From contig JABDGF010000006.1 of assembly GCA_013286165.1 (NCBI GenBank), positions 1 through 64,000 on the forward strand: 64,000 bases of DNA, written 5' to 3'. Below the pieces are notes generated by a model. It did no database searches. It was not told the origin of the DNA and saw only the letters and a program-made list of their open reading frames with translations. This document shows positions 591-61,759 of the stretch, in pieces; the stretch's first letter is position 1, and every line of letters begins with the position of its first letter. Both the position numbers and the translations under genes were made by a program. This stretch comes from Acidobacteriota bacterium. Lineage in GTDB: Bacteria > Acidobacteriota > Terriglobia > Acidiferrales > UBA7541.

Positions 591-660
591 GGGACACAGA
601 CATTTGTGTCTGTGGCACAGGCGCGAACGCCTGTGCCACTGGCAGGAATGCCCGTGCTAC
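591..660. repeat. Family A hairpin repeat, double unit
   Basis: Two adjacent hairpins: ACACAGA-catt-TGTGTCT, then ACAGGCG-cgaa-CGCCTGT followed by GCCAC. This is the commonest intergenic repeat of the window (consensus arms ACAGGC/GCCTGT plus a GTGCCAC tail). Confidence 0.75.
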
Positions 661-7075: not shown

Positions 7076-7236
7076 CGCCTTTGACGTAATCCAGAGACCC
7101 GTTCACGGGTCGAAGGATCTCTCTTCGCCGTTGACGTTGCCGCGTGGCCCGACGCAGTGCTCCTGAATCTGCGCCAAAAGCCGGGGAGAGATCCTTCGGC
7201 CGATGAATCGGCCTCTGGATGACGTCAAAAGCAGGA
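7076..7236. repeat. Family C repeat, inverted pair
   Basis: Two copies in opposite orientation: GACCCGTTCACGGGTC plus GAAGGATCTCTCTTCGCC (left), and GAGAGATCCTTCGGCC plus GATGAATCGGCCTCTGGATG (right). Each has a central hairpin, GACCCGT/ACGGGTC or GGCCGAT/ATCGGCC. The hairpin changes while the flanks stay the same. Confidence 0.7.
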
Positions 7237-8066: not shown

Positions 8067-9137
8067 ATGAGCACGCCCGCCGCTGCACTAAATATGGACA
8101 AACTGAACGCATTCGTCGGCCGCTTCGTCGCCGATCTGGGAGCGACCGTCCACGCCGGCATGGTCGTCATCGGCGATAAACTCGGCCTCTACAAAGCGCT
8201 GGCCACCGGCGCGATGACGCCCGCCGAACTCGCCGCCGCCACGAAAACCGACGAACGCTACATCCGCGAATGGCTCTCGTCGCAGGCCGCCGGCGGCTAC
8301 GTGAATTACGACGCCGCCTCCGGCAAATTCAGTCTCGACGCCGAGCAGGCCTTCACCCTCGCCAACGAAGACAGTCCCGCCTTTCTGCCCGGCGGTTTTG
8401 AAACCGCGATCGGCTCTCTCGCCGCCGTCCCGCGCATCACCGAAGCTTTCAAATCCGGCGCGGGCATGGGTTGGAACGAGCATTCCGAATATGTCTTCCA
8501 CGGCTGCGAGAAATTTTTCAAGTCCGGCTACATTGCGAATCTGGTCTCGAACTGGATCCCCTCGCTTTCCGGCGTGAAGGAAAAACTCGAAGCCGGTGCG
8601 AAGGTGGCCGATGTGGGCTGCGGCAAAGGCGCTTCCACGATCCTGATGGCCAAGGCCTTCCCGAATTCGCACTTCACCGGCTTCGACTATCACACCGGCT
8701 CGATCGAAGGCGCGCGCGCCACAGCGAAACGCGAAGGCGTCGCCGCTCGCGCAAATTTTGAAGTCGCCGCCGCCAAGCAGTTCCCCGGCACCGGCTACGA
8801 TTTCATTGCCGTCTTCGATTGCCTGCACGACATGGGCGATCCGGTCGGCGCCGCGAAACACGTTCGCCAGGCGCTCGCGCCCGATGGCTCGTGGATGATC
8901 GTCGAGCCGTTTGCCAACGACGAGTTGAAGGACAATCTGAATCCGGTGGGCCGCGTGTACTACGGATTTTCGACGCTGCTGTGCACGCCGTGCTCGCGTT
9001 CGCAGGAAGTGGCCGCGTGCCTGGGCGCGCAGGCCGGCGAAAAGCGCATCCGCGACGTGGTGACGGCCGCCGGCTTCACGCGATTCCGCCGCGCCGCCGA
9101 AACGCCGTTCAATATTGTGTACGAAGCCCGGCCGTGA
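8067..9137 (+). CDS. Class I SAM-dependent methyltransferase with N-terminal winged helix, 356 aa
   Basis: The start at 8067 follows CTGGAGG. Residues 1-95 form the winged-helix/dimerisation part seen in Rv2258c-type enzymes (GDKLGLYKALATGAMTPAEL). The Rossmann core begins at about 185 with AKVADVGCGKGASTILMAKA (SAM-binding GxGxG-like loop), then FTGFDYH with the ribose-binding acidic residue and FDCLHDMGDP as motif IV. The substrate is unknown; it could be a small molecule or a natural product. The last 36 codons recur at 10360, so this gene was partly duplicated. Confidence 0.8.
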   Translation: MSTPAAALNMDKLNAFVGRFVADLGATVHAGMVVIGDKLGLYKALATGAMTPAELAAATKTDERYIREWLSSQAAGGYVNYDAASGKFSLDAEQAFTLANEDSPAFLPGGFETAIGSLAAVPRITEAFKSGAGMGWNEHSEYVFHGCEKFFKSGYIANLVSNWIPSLSGVKEKLEAGAKVADVGCGKGASTILMAKAFPNSHFTGFDYHTGSIEGARATAKREGVAARANFEVAAAKQFPGTGYDFIAVFDCLHDMGDPVGAAKHVRQALAPDGSWMIVEPFANDELKDNLNPVGRVYYGFSTLLCTPCSRSQEVAACLGAQAGEKRIRDVVTAAGFTRFRRAAETPFNIVYEARP

Positions 9138-9185
9138 ATTTGCGGCATGAGGTGGGGTAGCAGGTGCGTTTGGAGTGCCGGCATT

Positions 9186-10359: not shown

Positions 10360-10473
10360 AGCGCCCAGGCCGGCGAAAATCGCATTCGCGACGTGGTGAC
10401 CGCCGCCGGCTTCACGCGATTCCGCCGCGCCGCCGAAACGCCATTCTATATTGTGTACGAAGCGCGGCCGTGA
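10360..10473 (+). pseudogene. Duplicated 3' end of the methyltransferase gene
   Basis: In-frame copy of the last 36 codons and stop of the gene at 8067 (AQAGE(N/K)RIRDVVTAAGFT then RFRRAAETPF(Y/N)IVYEAR P). Only a few base changes separate it from 9027-9137, and the match continues into the first bases after the stop. No start or upstream part of the gene remains here. It gives a direct repeat of about 115 bp, 1.33 kb apart. Confidence 0.85.
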
Positions 10474-10514
10474 ATTTGCGCACAGCGCGAACTCACACGT
10501 TCCCCTCCCCGCCT

Positions 10515-11533: not shown

Positions 11534-11992
11534 ATGCCACCAACTGTAAACGAGATTGTTCTTTTAAGCCTCGCGCTTTATGTGCTGGTAATTGTCGTCG
11601 AGGCGGTTCGCAGCCGCGACTTTGGTTCCCGCTTGTGGCGCCAGGTGGCTGGCATTTTGATAGCGGCTTCAGCGCTTCATTGGGTTACTGGATTCCCTTT
11701 CGCACGGCAGGCGTTCGGTGCCGACGTCGCCTTATGGCAGATTCTCCTCACCGCAATATGTGTCATCTTGGGCATCGCCGCCAACGGGGCGTATTATCAC
11801 AGCGGCACAGCGTGGGCGCCGATCCTAAAGCCACTACTTCTGTCTCCGATCGTGGTTGGTCCACTGATTATGATCATCAACCCCGAAGCAAGCAAACGGG
11901 ACGCCGCCGTTTTCTACTGCGTGGCATTCCAGAACGGTTTTTTCTGGCGGTCGGTCTTTAAGAATGCCAAACCCAAGCCTCTCAACAATTAG
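11534..11992 (+). CDS. Hypothetical four-TM membrane protein, 152 aa
   Basis: Hydrophobic helices at about residues 7-24 (IVLLSLALYVLVIVVEAV), 37-55, 67-88 (LWQILLTAICVILGIAANGA) and 98-116 (LKPLLLSPIVVGPLIMII), with short polar ends. The 3' end overlaps the start of the caspase-like gene by 29 nt in another frame, implying translational coupling and a shared role. No family recognised; the lower GC matches its neighbour. Confidence 0.7.
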   Translation: MPPTVNEIVLLSLALYVLVIVVEAVRSRDFGSRLWRQVAGILIAASALHWVTGFPFARQAFGADVALWQILLTAICVILGIAANGAYYHSGTAWAPILKPLLLSPIVVGPLIMIINPEASKRDAAVFYCVAFQNGFFWRSVFKNAKPKPLNN

Positions 11993-13694
11993 TCGCTGGA
12001 TCGTCGCGGCCATAATATTTGTGGCAGCACCTTTCGTCGCAGTCGGACAGGACCAACCGCCCGTACAGCAGCAATATAGAAAATTCTTTGTCCACTACGT
12101 CGACAGACGGTCGTTGTCCGAGAAAGGCCTGAACCTGATCGGGCTTACGGCGAACGACGTGGGCCGTAGTTTTGCCATCGTTGCTGGCGTTTCTCATTAC
12201 CCTCGACTCCCTTCCGGACAGCGGGATCTCCGTCCTGCTGAGGTCGATAAAAGGGAGTTAGTCGCATATCTCACAAATGAAGAGCTGTTTGATGAAATTG
12301 TTGTTCTGTGGGATGAAGAAATGACGCAGTCGAATCTCGACTATTTCTTGAAAAGCTACTTTCCCGAGCGGCTAGAGAAGTTCCCGAAATCGCGATTCCT
12401 ATTTGCTTACAGTGGACATGGCTTTCTGGATGGTGACAGGGGCTACGTTCTCACGAATGGTGCAACGAGTTTTACAGACAAAAGGAATGCGGTCGACCTT
12501 GCAACTATTAGGACAGACCTTAACAGCGATATTGAGGCCGGATATCAGGTACTGGCGCTCATAAATTCGTGCAACGGCGGAGCATTCCTAACGAGGACTT
12601 CGTTCGGAAACGCCTACATACCGAAACACCCGGGCGCACACGCGATTACAGCTGGAGCGAGCAGCGAAAGGGCCTGGTCGGATAAAGCAGTCGGCTCCGG
12701 AAGCGTCTTTTTTGAGAAGTTGCTCTCCGGACTAGGCGGCGCCGCAGATAGAATACCAGACGGCGGAGATGGAATAATTACCGTTAGTGAACTTTATGCA
12801 TATCTTCGCCAGGAAGTGGAATTATCCACCGGTCAGGACCAAAACCCTCAACTCGGCGACCTCTCCGCAAATCAAAGCGAAGGCGAGTTCTTCTTTCTTA
12901 ATCGGAATCGCCAAATCGCTGCGAATCTGGTGCCGGCGTGGAATCCAGTAGAGCGAACGAGCATGGGTACGGACGAGCGGCAAAGCAGCTCAAGCGACAG
13001 CCAGATACCGCCAGGGGACGCGCTGAGAACATTCGGCGCGGATTGGAAATCGACGGCAAATGGGTCGGGAATGTACTACAACGGAACATTCGGCGATTCT
13101 TCATATATTCAGCAAGCCTTCGACGGCGTTCTCCACGTCGAGCTATCATTGTCCCAATCGAACGCGCGATATGAGCGAATGCAATTTCGGTCATCGCCGA
13201 TCAATAAGAGCTATGGTGCGGACTTATCGCCCGGATTCGGGCGCCCAAACGTTCACGTTGATCTGAACCTGGTTTACACGATTAGCGTATTCCTTACCAA
13301 ACCCACTGCTTTGCTTCCGATTCAGCCTGTGGCTGGTGGGGCGTTTAAGGTGTCGCCTTTCAGCTCATCGATGTGCCAGTGGCAGTGTTTTGAAATCGAG
13401 ATTACGGGGACGTGGATCGCGAAAGCCGGTGGTCACGAGTACTATGGAGACATCCAGCCAATAACGGAAGGTGGCGCTGGCGCGTCCGTCGTCGCGACGC
13501 TGTGGGTAGATCCGCACCATTTCCCGACCGAAATCGCTGTCACGAGCATCGATTGGAGCGGCAATTCGAACAATGTTACCAACATGACGTTAATTGACAC
13601 CACTATCGAGGATGTACCAGTGAAGGTTTTTCTCACCAGCGTGAGTTTTCCCAATCTCAAAGGTCCACAATCGTTGATGAACTCGGATAAATGA
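11964..13694 (+). CDS. Secreted caspase-fold (C14-type) cysteine peptidase, 576 aa
   Basis: The N-terminus has a signal peptide (ISRWIVAAIIFVAAPFVAVG, cleavage near residue 29). Residues about 65-320 carry the caspase/metacaspase fold: FAIVAGVSHYP strand, catalytic His152 in FLFAYSGHG, and catalytic Cys203 in ALINSCNGG. The region after about 370 is beta-rich and unrecognised, possibly a substrate-binding or surface domain. It overlaps the membrane-protein gene at 11534, so the pair probably acts together at the envelope. Known bacterial caspase homologues cut after basic or acidic residues and can serve in cell death or processing; the role here is open. Confidence 0.8.
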   Translation: MPNPSLSTISRWIVAAIIFVAAPFVAVGQDQPPVQQQYRKFFVHYVDRRSLSEKGLNLIGLTANDVGRSFAIVAGVSHYPRLPSGQRDLRPAEVDKRELVAYLTNEELFDEIVVLWDEEMTQSNLDYFLKSYFPERLEKFPKSRFLFAYSGHGFLDGDRGYVLTNGATSFTDKRNAVDLATIRTDLNSDIEAGYQVLALINSCNGGAFLTRTSFGNAYIPKHPGAHAITAGASSERAWSDKAVGSGSVFFEKLLSGLGGAADRIPDGGDGIITVSELYAYLRQEVELSTGQDQNPQLGDLSANQSEGEFFFLNRNRQIAANLVPAWNPVERTSMGTDERQSSSSDSQIPPGDALRTFGADWKSTANGSGMYYNGTFGDSSYIQQAFDGVLHVELSLSQSNARYERMQFRSSPINKSYGADLSPGFGRPNVHVDLNLVYTISVFLTKPTALLPIQPVAGGAFKVSPFSSSMCQWQCFEIEITGTWIAKAGGHEYYGDIQPITEGGAGASVVATLWVDPHHFPTEIAVTSIDWSGNSNNVTNMTLIDTTIEDVPVKVFLTSVSFPNLKGPQSLMNSDK

Positions 13695-18705: not shown

Positions 18706-18895
18706 GAGAAAATATTTCTGTGCCACACGAAGCGCCGTAGCGGTTGGCGCAGAAGGATTTTTGGTTTTGTGGGTTTGGGGAGATGGCTCAACCCGGGACC
18801 AACTGAGAGTTGGTCCCGCTCAGACTCGAAAGTCTAAGCTACATCCCGCGGGGCGGGACTGAAGCACACCGGCGGGAACGCCCATGCTACTTGCG
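18706..18895. repeat. Composite repeat: family E half, family B, family A
   Basis: Family E half at 18706-18735 (AAATATTTCTGTGCCACACG). Family B at 18795-18835: GGGACCAAC-tgaga-GTTGGTCCC, then AGACT-cgaa-AGTCT and AAGCTACAT. A GC hairpin and a family A variant follow, ending GCCCATGCTAC at about 18891. This is the reference arrangement of the modular repeat. Confidence 0.8.
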
Positions 18896-23784: not shown

Positions 23785-23970
23785 CAGACAGGCGAACTCC
23801 GGCCTGCGCCACTCTTGGGGCTTGGTGCGTGCTGAACCAGTGCGGATTGCTGGGAGGTGGGATGGCTCAACCCGCGACCCACTGAACTGGGTCGCGCACA
23901 GACTCCAGAGTCTATGTTACAGCGCGCGGTGCGCGCCTGAGGCACACAGGCGAAGTCTGGCCTGTGCCCC
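23785..23970. repeat. Family A, B and A repeats with altered stems
   Basis: Family A at 23785-23816. Family B variant at 23874-23915: GCGACCCA-ctgaac-TGGGTCGC and GACTC-ca-GAGTC. Family A at 23932-23970. Relative to the 18795 copy the B stem has changed on both sides while staying paired. Confidence 0.75.
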
Positions 23971-28699: not shown

Positions 28700-28860
28700 T
28701 GGGAGTAGCATGGGCGTTCGCGCCGGTGTGTTGGCGTGTGGAAGGCGGGGAGAGATCCTTCGACCCGTGAACGGGTCTCTGGATGACGGGCGTTTTTTTA
28801 AATCGCCCGTTGTACAAAGCAAAGTCAAAGGTACACAGGCGAACTCCAGCCTGTGCCACG
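28700..28860. repeat. Families A' and C plus A between genes
   Basis: Inverted family A variant GTAGCATGGGCGTTCGCGCC (28706), family C with GACCCGT-ga-ACGGGTC (28748-28790), then a full family A (28833-28860). The C copy is followed by GACGGGCG-ttttttta-AATCGCCCGT. Confidence 0.7.
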
Positions 28861-32037: not shown

Positions 32038-32345
32038 AGGTGGGAGTAGCATGGGCCGGCTCCCTCCTCCGCGCTTTCCGCGGCGAATCTTGCCGGTGTG
32101 TGGGCGTAGAAAGCGGAGAGGGATCCTTCGACCCGTGAACGGGTTTCTGGATGACGGGCGTTTTTTTAAACGCCCGTTGTACAAAGGCAGAGGCACACAG
32201 GCAACAGCGGCCTGTGCCACTTGCTTTCTTACCCAATGTGATCGTGCTTGGACTGCGTGTGTTGCCAGCACTTGGGGTGGATAAACCCGGGACCAACTGA
32301 GAGTTGGTCCCGCTCGGGCACGAAAGCCTAAGCTACATCGTGCTT
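32038..32345. repeat. Modular repeat array (A', C, A, B)
   Basis: Split A' (GTAGCATGGGCCGGC ... GCCGGTGTG, 32047-32100), C with GACCCGT/ACGGGTT (32116-32160), A (32193-32221), then B (GGGACCAAC/GTTGGTCCC at 32289-32311 and GGGC-acgaa-AGCCT). The second B hairpin has a paired A-T to G-C change relative to 18822-18835. Confidence 0.75.
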
Positions 32346-32398
32346 CGCGCGACTGAGGCGTGGCGTATGATGTGGCAGTTTTGATGGGAGCGTGAGGG

Positions 32399-34283: not shown

Positions 34284-34532
34284 AAGGCACATAGGCGGAA
34301 ACGCCTATGCTACTGGCGGGCGGGCGGCGCGTAGCATGGGCGTTCTCGCCGGTGTTGTGGTGTGCGAAGGCGAAGGCACACAGGCGAAGTCCGGCCTGTG
34401 CCACTTGCGGCCTTGCCTCATGTGATTGTGCTCGGATTGCTCGCGTTGCCAGCATTTGAAATGGCTGAACCCGGGACCAACTGAGAGTTGGTCGCGCTCA
34501 GACTCGAAAGTCTAAGCTACAGCTCGCTGCGC
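34284..34532. repeat. Modular repeat array (A, A', A, B)
   Basis: A variant ATAGGC-ggaaac-GCCTAT (34291-34308), inverted A' (34332-34355), A (34378-34403), then B with GACCAAC/GTTGGTC (34478-34495), AGACT/AGTCT and an AGCTCGCTGCGCTCGCCT hairpin. Confidence 0.75.
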
Positions 34533-34680
34533 TCGCCTAAGGCAAATTCAAAGGCATGCGGGCGTGACGTGCCTATTCCACTGCGTGCGCTTTGAAATTA
34601 TTGGGAGGGACTAGCTCGATGGTTGGCAGGATTGTGCCGGGGCGTCGTCGGAGGACAGCGTGCGCGCGACGGAGGCAAAC

Positions 34681-39354: not shown

Positions 39355-39831
39355 GTGCGGGTTCGGTGCGCGGAGCCCGGACGAGTTGCTGGCGATACTC
39401 TACACGTTTTGCGCGGGAGGCGTAGGGTAAGTCACGGATGGGCGCGCACCGGGCGCGTGGGTAGGATGGGCATACTTTCAACGCACTTCCTTTGGGCGCG
39501 GGGCCTGCTGTTGGTTTCGCGCCTCCTCTCCTTTTCTACCATCTACTCGGAATTCAAAAGCTGAGACACACAGAAAATATTTCTATGCCACACAAGGCAC
39601 TGTAACGAGCGTTGGTGGATTGGTGTGGGCGTGTGAGGCTTTTGGGGGATGGCACAACCCGGGACCAGGTGAGAGTTGGTCCCGCTCAGACTCGAAAGTC
39701 TAAGCTACATGGCGCTGCGCGCGACTGGGAAGAAGGCGTAGGCACGACCCGCACCTCACAGAATGTGAGGTGCACACAGACACGAATGTCTGTGCCACGA
39801 ACTGAAGTCGGTGAAGGCGTGCGCGCACCTA
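39355..39831. repeat. Intergenic region rich in E, B and A repeats
   Basis: Family E at 39565-39606 (ACACAGAAAATATTTCTATG then CCACACAAGGCACTGTAACG). B at 39670-39712 (GGGACCAGG-tgaga-GTTGGTCCC has mismatches; AGACT/AGTCT intact). Then GCACCTCACA-gaa-TGTGAGGTGC (39749-39773) and ACAGAC-acgaat-GTCTGT (39776-39795). 39355-39560 shows no feature. Confidence 0.7.
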
Positions 39832-46414: not shown

Positions 46415-46632
46415 AACACACAGGCGAACTCCAGACTGTGCCACGGACTGGCTTCCCTATTGTGAGTGCGGCAAGAAGTTGAAGTGGTGCCTGGAGTGGG
46501 GTAGCTGAACCTGGGACCGACTGAGAGTAGGTTGCGGTTAGCGAGAGAGGCTAAGCTAGATGGCGCTGCGCGCGACTCGAAACCCGCACAGACTGACAGT
46601 CTATGTTACATCGCGCTGCGCGCGACTAAAGC
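46415..46632. repeat. A repeat and degraded B repeats
   Basis: A at 46417-46443 (ACAGGCGAACTCCAGACTGT then GCCAC, one arm mismatch). B-like remnants at 46505-46560 (GGGACCGAC...GTAGGTTGC) and 46577-46630 (AGACT-gac-AGTCT, CGCGCTGCGCGCG). Confidence 0.6.
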
Positions 46633-56306: not shown

Positions 56307-56420
56307 TCGATGGCTCAACCCGGGACCAACTGAGAGTTGGTCCCGCTCAGACTCGAAAGTCTAAGCTACATCGCGCTGCGCACGACGAAGGCACACGGGC
56401 GAGAACGCCCATGCTACTCG
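56307..56420. repeat. Modular repeat (B then A)
   Basis: GGGACCAAC-tgaga-GTTGGTCCC (56322-56344), AGACT-cgaa-AGTCT, CGCGCTGCGC hairpin, then ACGGGCG-agaa-CGCCCAT and GCTACT (56394-56418). Nearly identical to 18795-18895. Confidence 0.8.
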
Positions 56421-58258: not shown

Positions 58259-58687
58259 ATGCGATTGGCGAAGAAATTTGTGCTGGCGGCATTTTTTGTG
58301 GCGGCGGTGGGATGCTTCAGCGTGGCGAAGGCGCAGTCTGCGGGCGATGATGTGAAGGCTGCGGCGGATAAGACCGGCGATGCGACGAAGACGGCGGCGA
58401 AGGATACTGGGCACGCGACGAAGAAAGCGGCGACCAAGACGGCGGATGCTACTAAGACGGGCGCGACGAAGACCAAGGATGCGACCAAGACGGCGGCGGA
58501 TAAGACTGCTGATGCGACGAAGACGGGGGCGAAGGACACGGCGCACGCGACGGACAAGGCTGCGGACAAGACGGCGGATGCTACCAAGACGGGGGCGAAG
58601 AAGACTGGAAGCGCGGTGAAGAAGACGGCGAAGAAGGCGACCGGGGACGATGCGAAGCCGGCGGATTCGACGACGAAGCCGAACTGA
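58259..58687 (+). CDS. Exported Lys/Ala/Thr-repeat protein (LEA/histone H1-like), 142 aa
   Basis: ATG at 58259 with AAGGAG at 58245-58250. Signal peptide LAAFFVAAVGCFSVAKAQ. The mature protein is almost only imperfect 11-residue-type repeats of K-T-A/G-D/H-A-T-K (e.g. KTADATKTGAKDTAHATDKA ADK), giving a strongly basic amphipathic helix like LEA group 3 or histone-H1 tails. Such proteins protect membranes or envelopes on drying, or bind polyanions. Monocistronic, closed by a terminator. Confidence 0.7.
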   Translation: MRLAKKFVLAAFFVAAVGCFSVAKAQSAGDDVKAAADKTGDATKTAAKDTGHATKKAATKTADATKTGATKTKDATKTAADKTADATKTGAKDTAHATDKAADKTADATKTGAKKTGSAVKKTAKKATGDDAKPADSTTKPN

Positions 58688-59274: not shown

Positions 59275-59446
59275 CAAAGGCGCACGGGCGCACTCCGGCC
59301 TGTGCCACTTACTTTCTTATCCAAGGTGGCCGTGCACGGACTGGACGTGGTGCCAGCATTGGTGATGGCTGAACCCGGGACCAACTGAGAGTTGGTCCCG
59401 CTCAGGCACGAAAGCCTAAGCTACAGCTCGCTGCGCTCGCCTAAAA
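59275..59446. repeat. Modular repeat (A then B)
   Basis: ACGGGCGCACTCCGGCCTGT GCCAC (59284-59308). B at 59376-59422: GGGACCAAC/GTTGGTCCC, then GGC-acgaaa-GCC instead of AGACT/AGTCT, and AGCTCGCTGCGCTCGCCT. Confidence 0.75.
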
Positions 59447-59448
59447 CG

Positions 59449-61507: not shown

Positions 61508-61600
61508 GCGAGTAGCATGGGCGTTCCCGCCGGTGTGGATGTGGGCGCGCGCTGGAGCGCGTTTATCACACAGGCCAACTCCAGCCTGTGCCACTTGCTT
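61508..61600. repeat. Families A' and A
   Basis: GTAGCATGGGCGTTCCCGCC GGTGT (61512-61535), then ACAGGCCAACTCCAGCCTGT GCCAC (61569-61593). Confidence 0.7.
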
Positions 61601-61759
61601 TCGTCCCTGTTGTGATTGTGGCAAGAAGGTGGAGTGATGCCTGGAGTGGAGAGGGCTGAAACCCGTGCACCAAATTGGAGGGGTGGTGCGACAAAGTGGT
61701 CTGCGGGGATGGGGCGAAGTGGCGCTCGCGGTTTTTGGCGGCGTTGGTAACATCGGGGC

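Follow-up and report, generated by a model that had tools for sequence, protein, structure and literature searches.

A mosaic of REP-like, GTRR-headed palindromes oriented with local strand composition in an Acidobacteriota genome

The window considered here, by which we mean the whole analysed stretch of 64,000 nucleotides from an Acidobacteriota bacterium, carries a composite repeat of three hairpins (H1, H2 and H3), called composite A below, that an earlier note on this DNA had listed at seven sites. A covariance model, R1, built from 34 copies of composite A, matches all seven sites with 84.7-107.9 bits, the coordinates previously given being right within about 15 bases, and it also matches an eighth, degenerate copy that was missing from that list. 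All eight composites have one orientation, on the minus strand. The copy at 18781..18866 (107.9 bits) has a GTAG head at 18842-18839 on the minus strand. It contains H1 (GGGACCAAC/GTTGGTCCC), a headless partner hairpin, at 18795..18817, and, as located by its family pattern on the minus strand at 18819..18842, the REP proper, A2 (GTAG-CTTAGACT-TTCG-AGTCTGAG, with a T.G third pair). A C-type REP (GTAG-CATGGGCG...CGCCGGTG) is present at 18867..18890 on the same strand, with its head 48 nt 5' of the A2 head. The other copies are at 23860..23944 (84.7 bits), where H2 is of the N type (GTAACATAGACT, head at 23920); at 32275..32360 (97.7 bits), with a B REP at 32220 on the 3' side; at 34459..34544 (101.3 bits), with the A2 head at 34520 and a B REP head at 34404, 116 nt 3'; at 39647..39732 (93.5 bits), with a U REP (GTGGCATAGAAATATTTTCTGTG) head at 39591 and a B REP head at 39798; at 46499..46583 (60.5 bits), the degenerate copy, with an N REP head at 46609; at 56308..56393 (106.5 bits), with a C REP head at 56417; and at 59363..59448 (99.8 bits). 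A partial match to R1 occurs at 39737-39809 (40.1 bits). Moreover, single B REPs without composite A are found by the family pattern on the minus strand at 28834..28859 and 61569..61594, and a B REP of 'double foot' form, GTGGCACAGGCG...CGCCTGTGCCAC, is at 612..639, where the pattern is matched on both strands.

Some other features of the window are noted for completeness. A separate 47-nt repeat family (GAGAGATCCTTCG...GATGACG), which is not of the GTRR kind, has four copies, at 7178, 24875, 28742 and 32110; a tandem array of eight copies with 33-nt spacing extends over 58322-58671, perhaps inside coding sequence; a 120-nt duplication with 94% identity joins 9025-9144 and 10361-10480; and the open reading frame at 11964-13694 has a caspase-like Peptidase_C14 domain (E 1.5e-8).

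The earlier note had proposed that a covariance model of the copies be searched against the genome and Rfam and that covariation be tested. With R1, 58 matches are obtained in the source draft genome, including weak ones down to 27 bits, with 45 at 50 bits or more, while BLAST places the A core at 41 positions; searching the window against Rfam yields no family at or above its gathering score. In the alignment A1, which comprises 34 of the copies then known, the A core on the plus strand begins with GATGGCTCAACCC-GGGACCAAC-TGAGA-GTTGGTCCC-GCTCAGACT-CGAA-AGTCTAAG and continues with CTACAT-CGCGC-TGC-GCGCG-ACT. Over the 22 pairs in these 34 copies, 94.2% of the 746 cells are paired, and when the partners are slid the value is 25.6-40.8%; helix 1 is paired in 97.4% and helix 3, the weakest, in 87.2%. 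Double changes occur in 8 pairs versus 3.1 in shuffles, with 0 of 500 shuffles reaching 8, and the covariation score is 0.111 versus 0.044 for the shuffled alignments (2.5 times), the significance of these shuffle comparisons being overstated because the copies are related. The compensatory stem changes claimed for the repeat are thus upheld on the 34 copies. As to the particular alternative stems that had been described, their changes are indeed paired, while the H2 stem near 59401 is AGGC/GCCT and not GGGC/GCCT, and the GC hairpin in its GCTCGCTGCGCTCGC form is not a full palindrome.

When the A core is read on the minus strand, it becomes GTAG-CTTAGACT-TTCG-AGTCTGAG-C, then GGGACCAAC-TCTCA-GTTGGTCCC, and on this strand the main hairpins are imperfect palindromes whose foot carries GTAG, GTGG or GTAA. 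Six families are distinguished, namely, A2; B, GTGG-CACAGGC...GCCTGTG; N, GTAA-CATAGACT...AGTCTGTG; P, GTGG-GACAGGC-TCTCA-GCCTGTC; U, GTGG-CATAGAAATATTTTCTGTG; and C, of the form GTAG-CATGGGCG...CGCCGGTG. The hairpins that had been labelled B before are of the same GTRR-headed kind as those labelled A. The head is GTAG in 40 of the 43 A2 matches (one of the 43 was later discarded as false), GTGG in 38 of 39 B matches (GTAG or GTGG in 39/39), GTGG in 6 of 7 P matches (GTAG or GTGG in 7/7), GTGG in all 6 U matches and GTAG in 10 of 12 C matches (GTAG or GTGG in 12/12); it is GTAA in 17/17 N matches, which fail the form GT(A/G)G. As its third pair, the stem has T.G in A2 (37/43), N (17/17), C (11/12) and U (4/6), not in B and P. 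On the plus strand of A the column 41-56 is C/A in 31/34 copies, and hence the T.G wobble exists on the GTRR strand only. Note also that folding of the minus strand of three copies as single-stranded DNA gives z values of -5.4, -4.8 and -2.7. In a tetranucleotide enrichment over all hairpins, GTAG in front of the hairpin ranked third, with 2.1-fold enrichment, a value diluted by the hairpins of coding regions, and the modules were therefore counted by the family patterns.

According to the available sections of PMC2817692, PMC3733652 and PMC6006769, REP elements are marked by an imperfect palindrome that has GTAG at its foot, and for the E. coli REPs those of PMC8266576 describe a conserved imperfection of the stem as also required. 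Since each of the main hairpins carries a GTRR head on the minus strand, we take them as REPs. They have the foot tetranucleotide (except N) and the imperfect palindrome, their copy number is high, with 122 matches of the six families in 961 kb of the source genome, and they are mostly intergenic, as 39 of the 43 A2 matches lie outside called genes. Against this assignment are the non-canonical GTAA head, the absence of T.G from B and P, and the headless H1. From what the earlier note had proposed, then, the modular, multi-copy, intergenic and REP-like character of a repeat whose structure is kept stands; the GTRR heads had been overlooked, and the choice between RNA and cruciform had been left open, where the evidence given below favours a hairpin of single-stranded DNA.

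The modules are arranged as mosaics with nearly fixed distances. In the 961 kb, 17 of 42 A2 copies have no other module within 260 bp. On the 5' side, the neighbours of A2 are N, C, B, P or A2 heads, mostly 46-51 nt away: N at 47-51 nt (6/6), C at 48, 48, 49 and 106 nt, B at 47, 50, 62 and 90 nt, P at 70 and 88 nt, and A2 at 46 nt. On the 3' side, B or U heads are at 114-118 nt in 15/15 cases, and in addition there are one C at 207 nt and one A2 at 46 nt. Of the modules within 260 bp of an A2 copy, all but one share its strand, and 6 of 78 clusters are of mixed orientation. Several REP types are therefore combined here with conserved inter-module spacers of about 57 nt, as in a BIME or REPIN, and the units are placed head to tail instead of being alternating or inverted. 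The spacer between the A and B modules (TATTGTGATTGTGGCAAGAAGTTGGAGTGGTGCCTGGAGTGG and variants) is conserved, for example, at 46417-46499 and 61567-61649; TATTGTGATTGTGGCAAGAAGTTGGAGTGGTGCCTGGAGTGG can also be read as a putative short cysteine-rich peptide.

The repeats are confined to the species so far as the searched genomes go. R1 gives no match in 19 other genomes of the genus, and BLAST with the A core gives none in 88 other genomes of the family; one exact A pattern has no match in genome_contigs and viral_contigs, from which records near the source genome may be left out, and the B pattern has only two unrelated single matches in genome_contigs. Of 399 genomes of the class, 17 contain a looser A2/N pattern (GTRRCNTAGRCT..AGYCTGNG), which has 50 matches in the source genome, 24 in G109, 22 in G034, 12 each in G108 and G087, 11 in G110, 10 in G065, 9 in G261 and 7 in G030 (the handles are ours), the reversed pattern giving two stray single matches. 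No empty site was seen: at the locus compared, that of the copy at 37.9 kb of contig C4, the adjacent gene has 58% identity in the nearest member of the genus, which is too distant for intergenic comparison. In G034 and G109 (L245-L262), the GTRG palindromes occur as inverted pairs with the heads outside, i.e., in REPIN form; all of the 10 close pairs in these two genomes are inverted, 9 of them 71-78 bp apart and one 25 bp apart.

As the earlier note had stated, there is no Y1/RAYT gene in the window, nor is there one in the rest of the draft genome. The genome-wide search that it had proposed, made by profiles for Y1_Tnp and REP_Tyr_transpos and by tblastn on 961 kb, found none in this draft, which is 55% complete, and no IS200 transposase was found in it. 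Two weak NF047646 matches, L073 and L074, were rejected as RAYTs, being on the opposite strand of a hybrid histidine kinase and a peptidase. Because RAYTs presumably work in trans and 44 of the 61 genomes searched have Y1_Tnp matches, the lack of a RAYT in the window does not speak against REPs. A REP_Tyr_transpos gene above the cut-off is present in 8 of the 10 searched genomes that have the A2/N-type pattern. The RAYTs L235, L236, L237 and L241, with 49-56% mutual identity, are flanked by GTRG palindromes; around L237, which belongs to G065 of the same family, there are 6 B-type palindromes within 3.3 kb versus 0 in 320 kb of G001, and these palindromes (GTGGCACAGGCACTCTTGCCTGTG and GTAG forms) match family B in head and stem, those around L235 and L236 being similar. 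Near relatives thus possess RAYTs accompanied by related REPs. Overall, only 9 of the 70 Y1/RAYT loci analysed, a set with some overlaps, have B-type palindromes, and in ten genomes the A2/N-type pattern is near only 1 of the 30 RAYT loci; like the lack of a RAYT in the source draft genome, these low shares weigh against the explanation given below. G001 has a different GTAG palindrome, with three copies on one strand beside the RAYT L080 (101 bits on NF047646) and six more elsewhere in that genome. It is also the case that REPs are known whose REPtron was deleted, as the available text of PMC3733652 describes.

Based on these results, it is quite likely that the repeats are REPs of new families confined to this species, arranged as a BIME-like mosaic and presumably spread by a RAYT in trans. 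The unit would be a GTAG, GTGG or GTAA head plus an imperfect palindrome that folds in single-stranded DNA; in the A and P units, another hairpin, which lacks a head and has TCTCA as its loop, would come after it. Such units would be non-autonomous, most likely spread in trans by a RAYT that may lie in the missing 45% of the genome or may have been lost.

A further, unexpected property emerges in the genome at large: the GTRR-headed strand is the locally C-rich strand in 110 of 122 elements and 70 of 78 clusters (p 1.7e-13), and the majority agrees with this rule on 23 of 24 contigs. The sample consists of 31 stretches of the source genome, partly picked for A copies before the skew was known, and the 122 matches were obtained from 124 after discarding C4:28771, an A2 match at the end of a ribosomal protein gene, and after one position matched by two patterns was counted once. 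The rule does not arise from base composition, because GTRRC words as such are about twice as common on the G-rich strand (4590 versus 2316 on the C-rich strand). Nor does it arise from gene direction, because in 27 stretches the gene bases are even between the strands (216,333 versus 216,525) and in co-directional gaps the GTRR heads of five families are on the coding strand in 20 cases and on the opposite strand in 16, yet the skew is followed in 34 of these 36. At third codon positions the skew reaches about 0.5 and is strong for genes of either strand. The density of all modules in the 31 stretches rises with the absolute GC skew (Spearman 0.44, p 6e-6), from roughly 0.3-0.7 per 10 kb where the skew is low to 3.9 where it exceeds 0.2. 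The 12 discordant matches include 4 true A2 copies and 3 C REPs in strongly skewed DNA. C-type REPs opposing the rule in strongly skewed DNA are at 28705, 34331 and 61512, and the C family may depend on a different RAYT.

The same rule is mostly followed by isolated REPs in four other genomes: 9/9 in G261, which belongs to another family, 11/12 in G065, 6/7 in G082 (two of nine matches having been removed as duplicates from overlapping stretches) and 7/9 in G030, or, at absolute skew above 0.05, 8/8, 7/7, 6/6 and 7/9, respectively. There is no clear strand bias in G034 (10/15 singles) and G109 (9/16), where the skew is weak and the pairs are inverted. G001 was set aside for this purpose, having only 9 copies and weak skew. 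In a control on E. coli, with 7 stretches of 50 kb, a REP pattern of the literature and the leading strand assigned from the position of the origin, GTAG is on the leading strand in 21 of 37 REPs and in 4 of 6 isolated ones, i.e., no bias in a small sample. In the literature searched, outside which most subscription journals lie, no report was found in which the orientation of REPs is tied to strand skew; the nearest case, in the available text of PMC3116915, is that of the tandem arrays of P. fluorescens SBW25, which run forward on one genome side and in reverse on the opposite one.

These observations bear on the other explanations of the repeats. If the pairing were kept in RNA, as in a 3' UTR stabiliser, a terminator or a regulatory leader, covarying stems would be natural, and it is also in keeping with such an element that A2 is enriched in convergent gaps (14 convergent, 8 divergent and 11 co-directional versus 65, 103 and 244 in the background) and that one copy follows the rplQ terminator. 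However, the orientation relative to transcription is random in the co-directional gaps, where it is the skew that is followed; the wobbles do not favour the plus strand, with 6 G.U on it and 8 on the minus strand, the T.G at column 41-56 being specific to the minus strand; no Rfam family is matched at the gathering thresholds; and the modules combine in many ways. We thus regard a structured RNA as unlikely, and since the orientation ignores transcription and follows composition and no Rfam match exists, a hairpin of single-stranded DNA is favoured over RNA. Oriented signals of chromosome architecture, either KOPS/AIMS-like or BIMEs bound by nucleoid proteins, and selected for segregation or organisation, would readily be locked to a strand throughout the genome and become denser with the absolute skew, as is seen. 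Such signals are nevertheless very unlikely here: the families are confined to one species, the copies are clustered mosaics of variable content, and different palindromes in other genomes obey the same rule, for which reasons transposition or loss fits better than a recognised word. It is highly improbable, too, that the hairpins are the ends of a mobile element other than a REP, such as an IS200/IS605 MITE, a PATE, or TIRYT terminal repeats as in Koribacter. The two-hairpin units and the conserved spacers between modules would suit such an element, and tyrosine transposases flanked by TIRs are reported for Acidobacteria in the available text of PMC3733652, but no constant pair of ends is present, since 17 of 42 A copies are solitary and the others have variable neighbours, all main modules carry the GTRR head, and the source draft genome has no IS200 transposase match.

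Returning to the reading that the modules are REPs, we consider how the strand lock may be related to replication. The S10-spc (L22) and rpoC operons, which are conserved and usually highly expressed, are on the locally G-rich strand, and this weakly supports the G-rich strand being the leading strand. In that case, the GTRR strand keeps off the template of the lagging strand. In the source genome, the skew drifts from plus to minus along contigs C1, C3, C4 and C5, with a gradual sign change also in C6, and along contig C1 of G082 (L265-L284; 20 stretches of 20 kb) its sign changes several times over 775 kb; the REP orientation tracks the local sign. As the sign changes of the skew exceed those expected of one origin and one terminus, a 'replication strand' is only inferred here, and inversions moving the skew and the REPs jointly would, as a conjecture, explain the multiple changes.

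Two causes of the lock can be envisaged. The simplest insertion model, of the IS608-like kind, would predict the side opposite to that observed, for with a leading G-rich strand GTRR should lie on that parental strand; this is against an origin of the lock in biased insertion of the REPs into single-stranded DNA at the fork instead of in selective loss. Relatives in the IS200/IS605 group do insert into the lagging-strand template (PMC6006769, available text), and we hold biased insertion to be possible, if rather doubtful. A natural reading is the loss of the exposed orientation, since TnpAREP requires a single-stranded REP, as described in the available text of PMC8266576. In this preferred cause, exposure at the replication fork of a GTRR strand lying on the lagging-strand template would lead to cleavage and loss, and the elements facing the other way would persist, if the G-rich strand is leading. 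We therefore propose, tentatively and with less than even confidence, that isolated and tandem REPs carry a replication-strand polarity, the elements exposed on the lagging-strand template being purged or never inserted, so that their orientation would record the direction of the fork; by the same reading, segments that were inverted afterwards, and their skew with them, would still preserve the record.

If this is true, the biology of REPs would be tied to replication as is known for IS200/IS605, and the head-to-tail and the inverted (REPIN) layouts would be two life styles of one REP stock in one bacterial family, for which a comparison within the family is available between the inverted pairs of G034 and G109 and the same-strand arrays of the source genome. 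According to the available text of PMC8266576, REP single strands are cut by RAYTs in vitro and the dissemination of REPs is poorly understood; a polarity that follows composition and not transcription would link the gain or loss of REPs to single-stranded DNA at the fork.

Finally, we compare the repeats with the closest known systems. To Rfam families there is no likeness, none reaching its gathering score in the window. The RAYT/TnpAREP REPtrons (PMC6006769, PMC8266576) resemble the L235-L241 clade, which has NHVH, WQ and YIExNP or YVExNP motifs and GTRG flanks, and 'double foot' REPs exist in both; by contrast, the source draft genome has no RAYT, and the L235-L241 motifs are between the published subclasses 2.1 and 2.4. 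With the BIMEs and REPINs of E. coli, Stenotrophomonas and P. fluorescens (PMC2817692, PMC3116915), the repeats share the combination of REP types and the conserved inter-REP spacers, whereas the REPs of those systems are alternating or inverted and the A2 neighbours here are on the same strand but for one. The repeats also resemble the 24 families of GTAG-tagged REPs (PMC3733652), with GTAG or GTGG heads, stems of 6-9 bp, intergenic positions, species specificity and several families per genome, and in P. putida and P. fluorescens units that join a REP and an unrelated stem-loop are likewise described there; what sets the present families apart from them are new sequences, head-to-tail mosaics of fixed spacing, an orientation locked to the skew and a family headed by GTAA.
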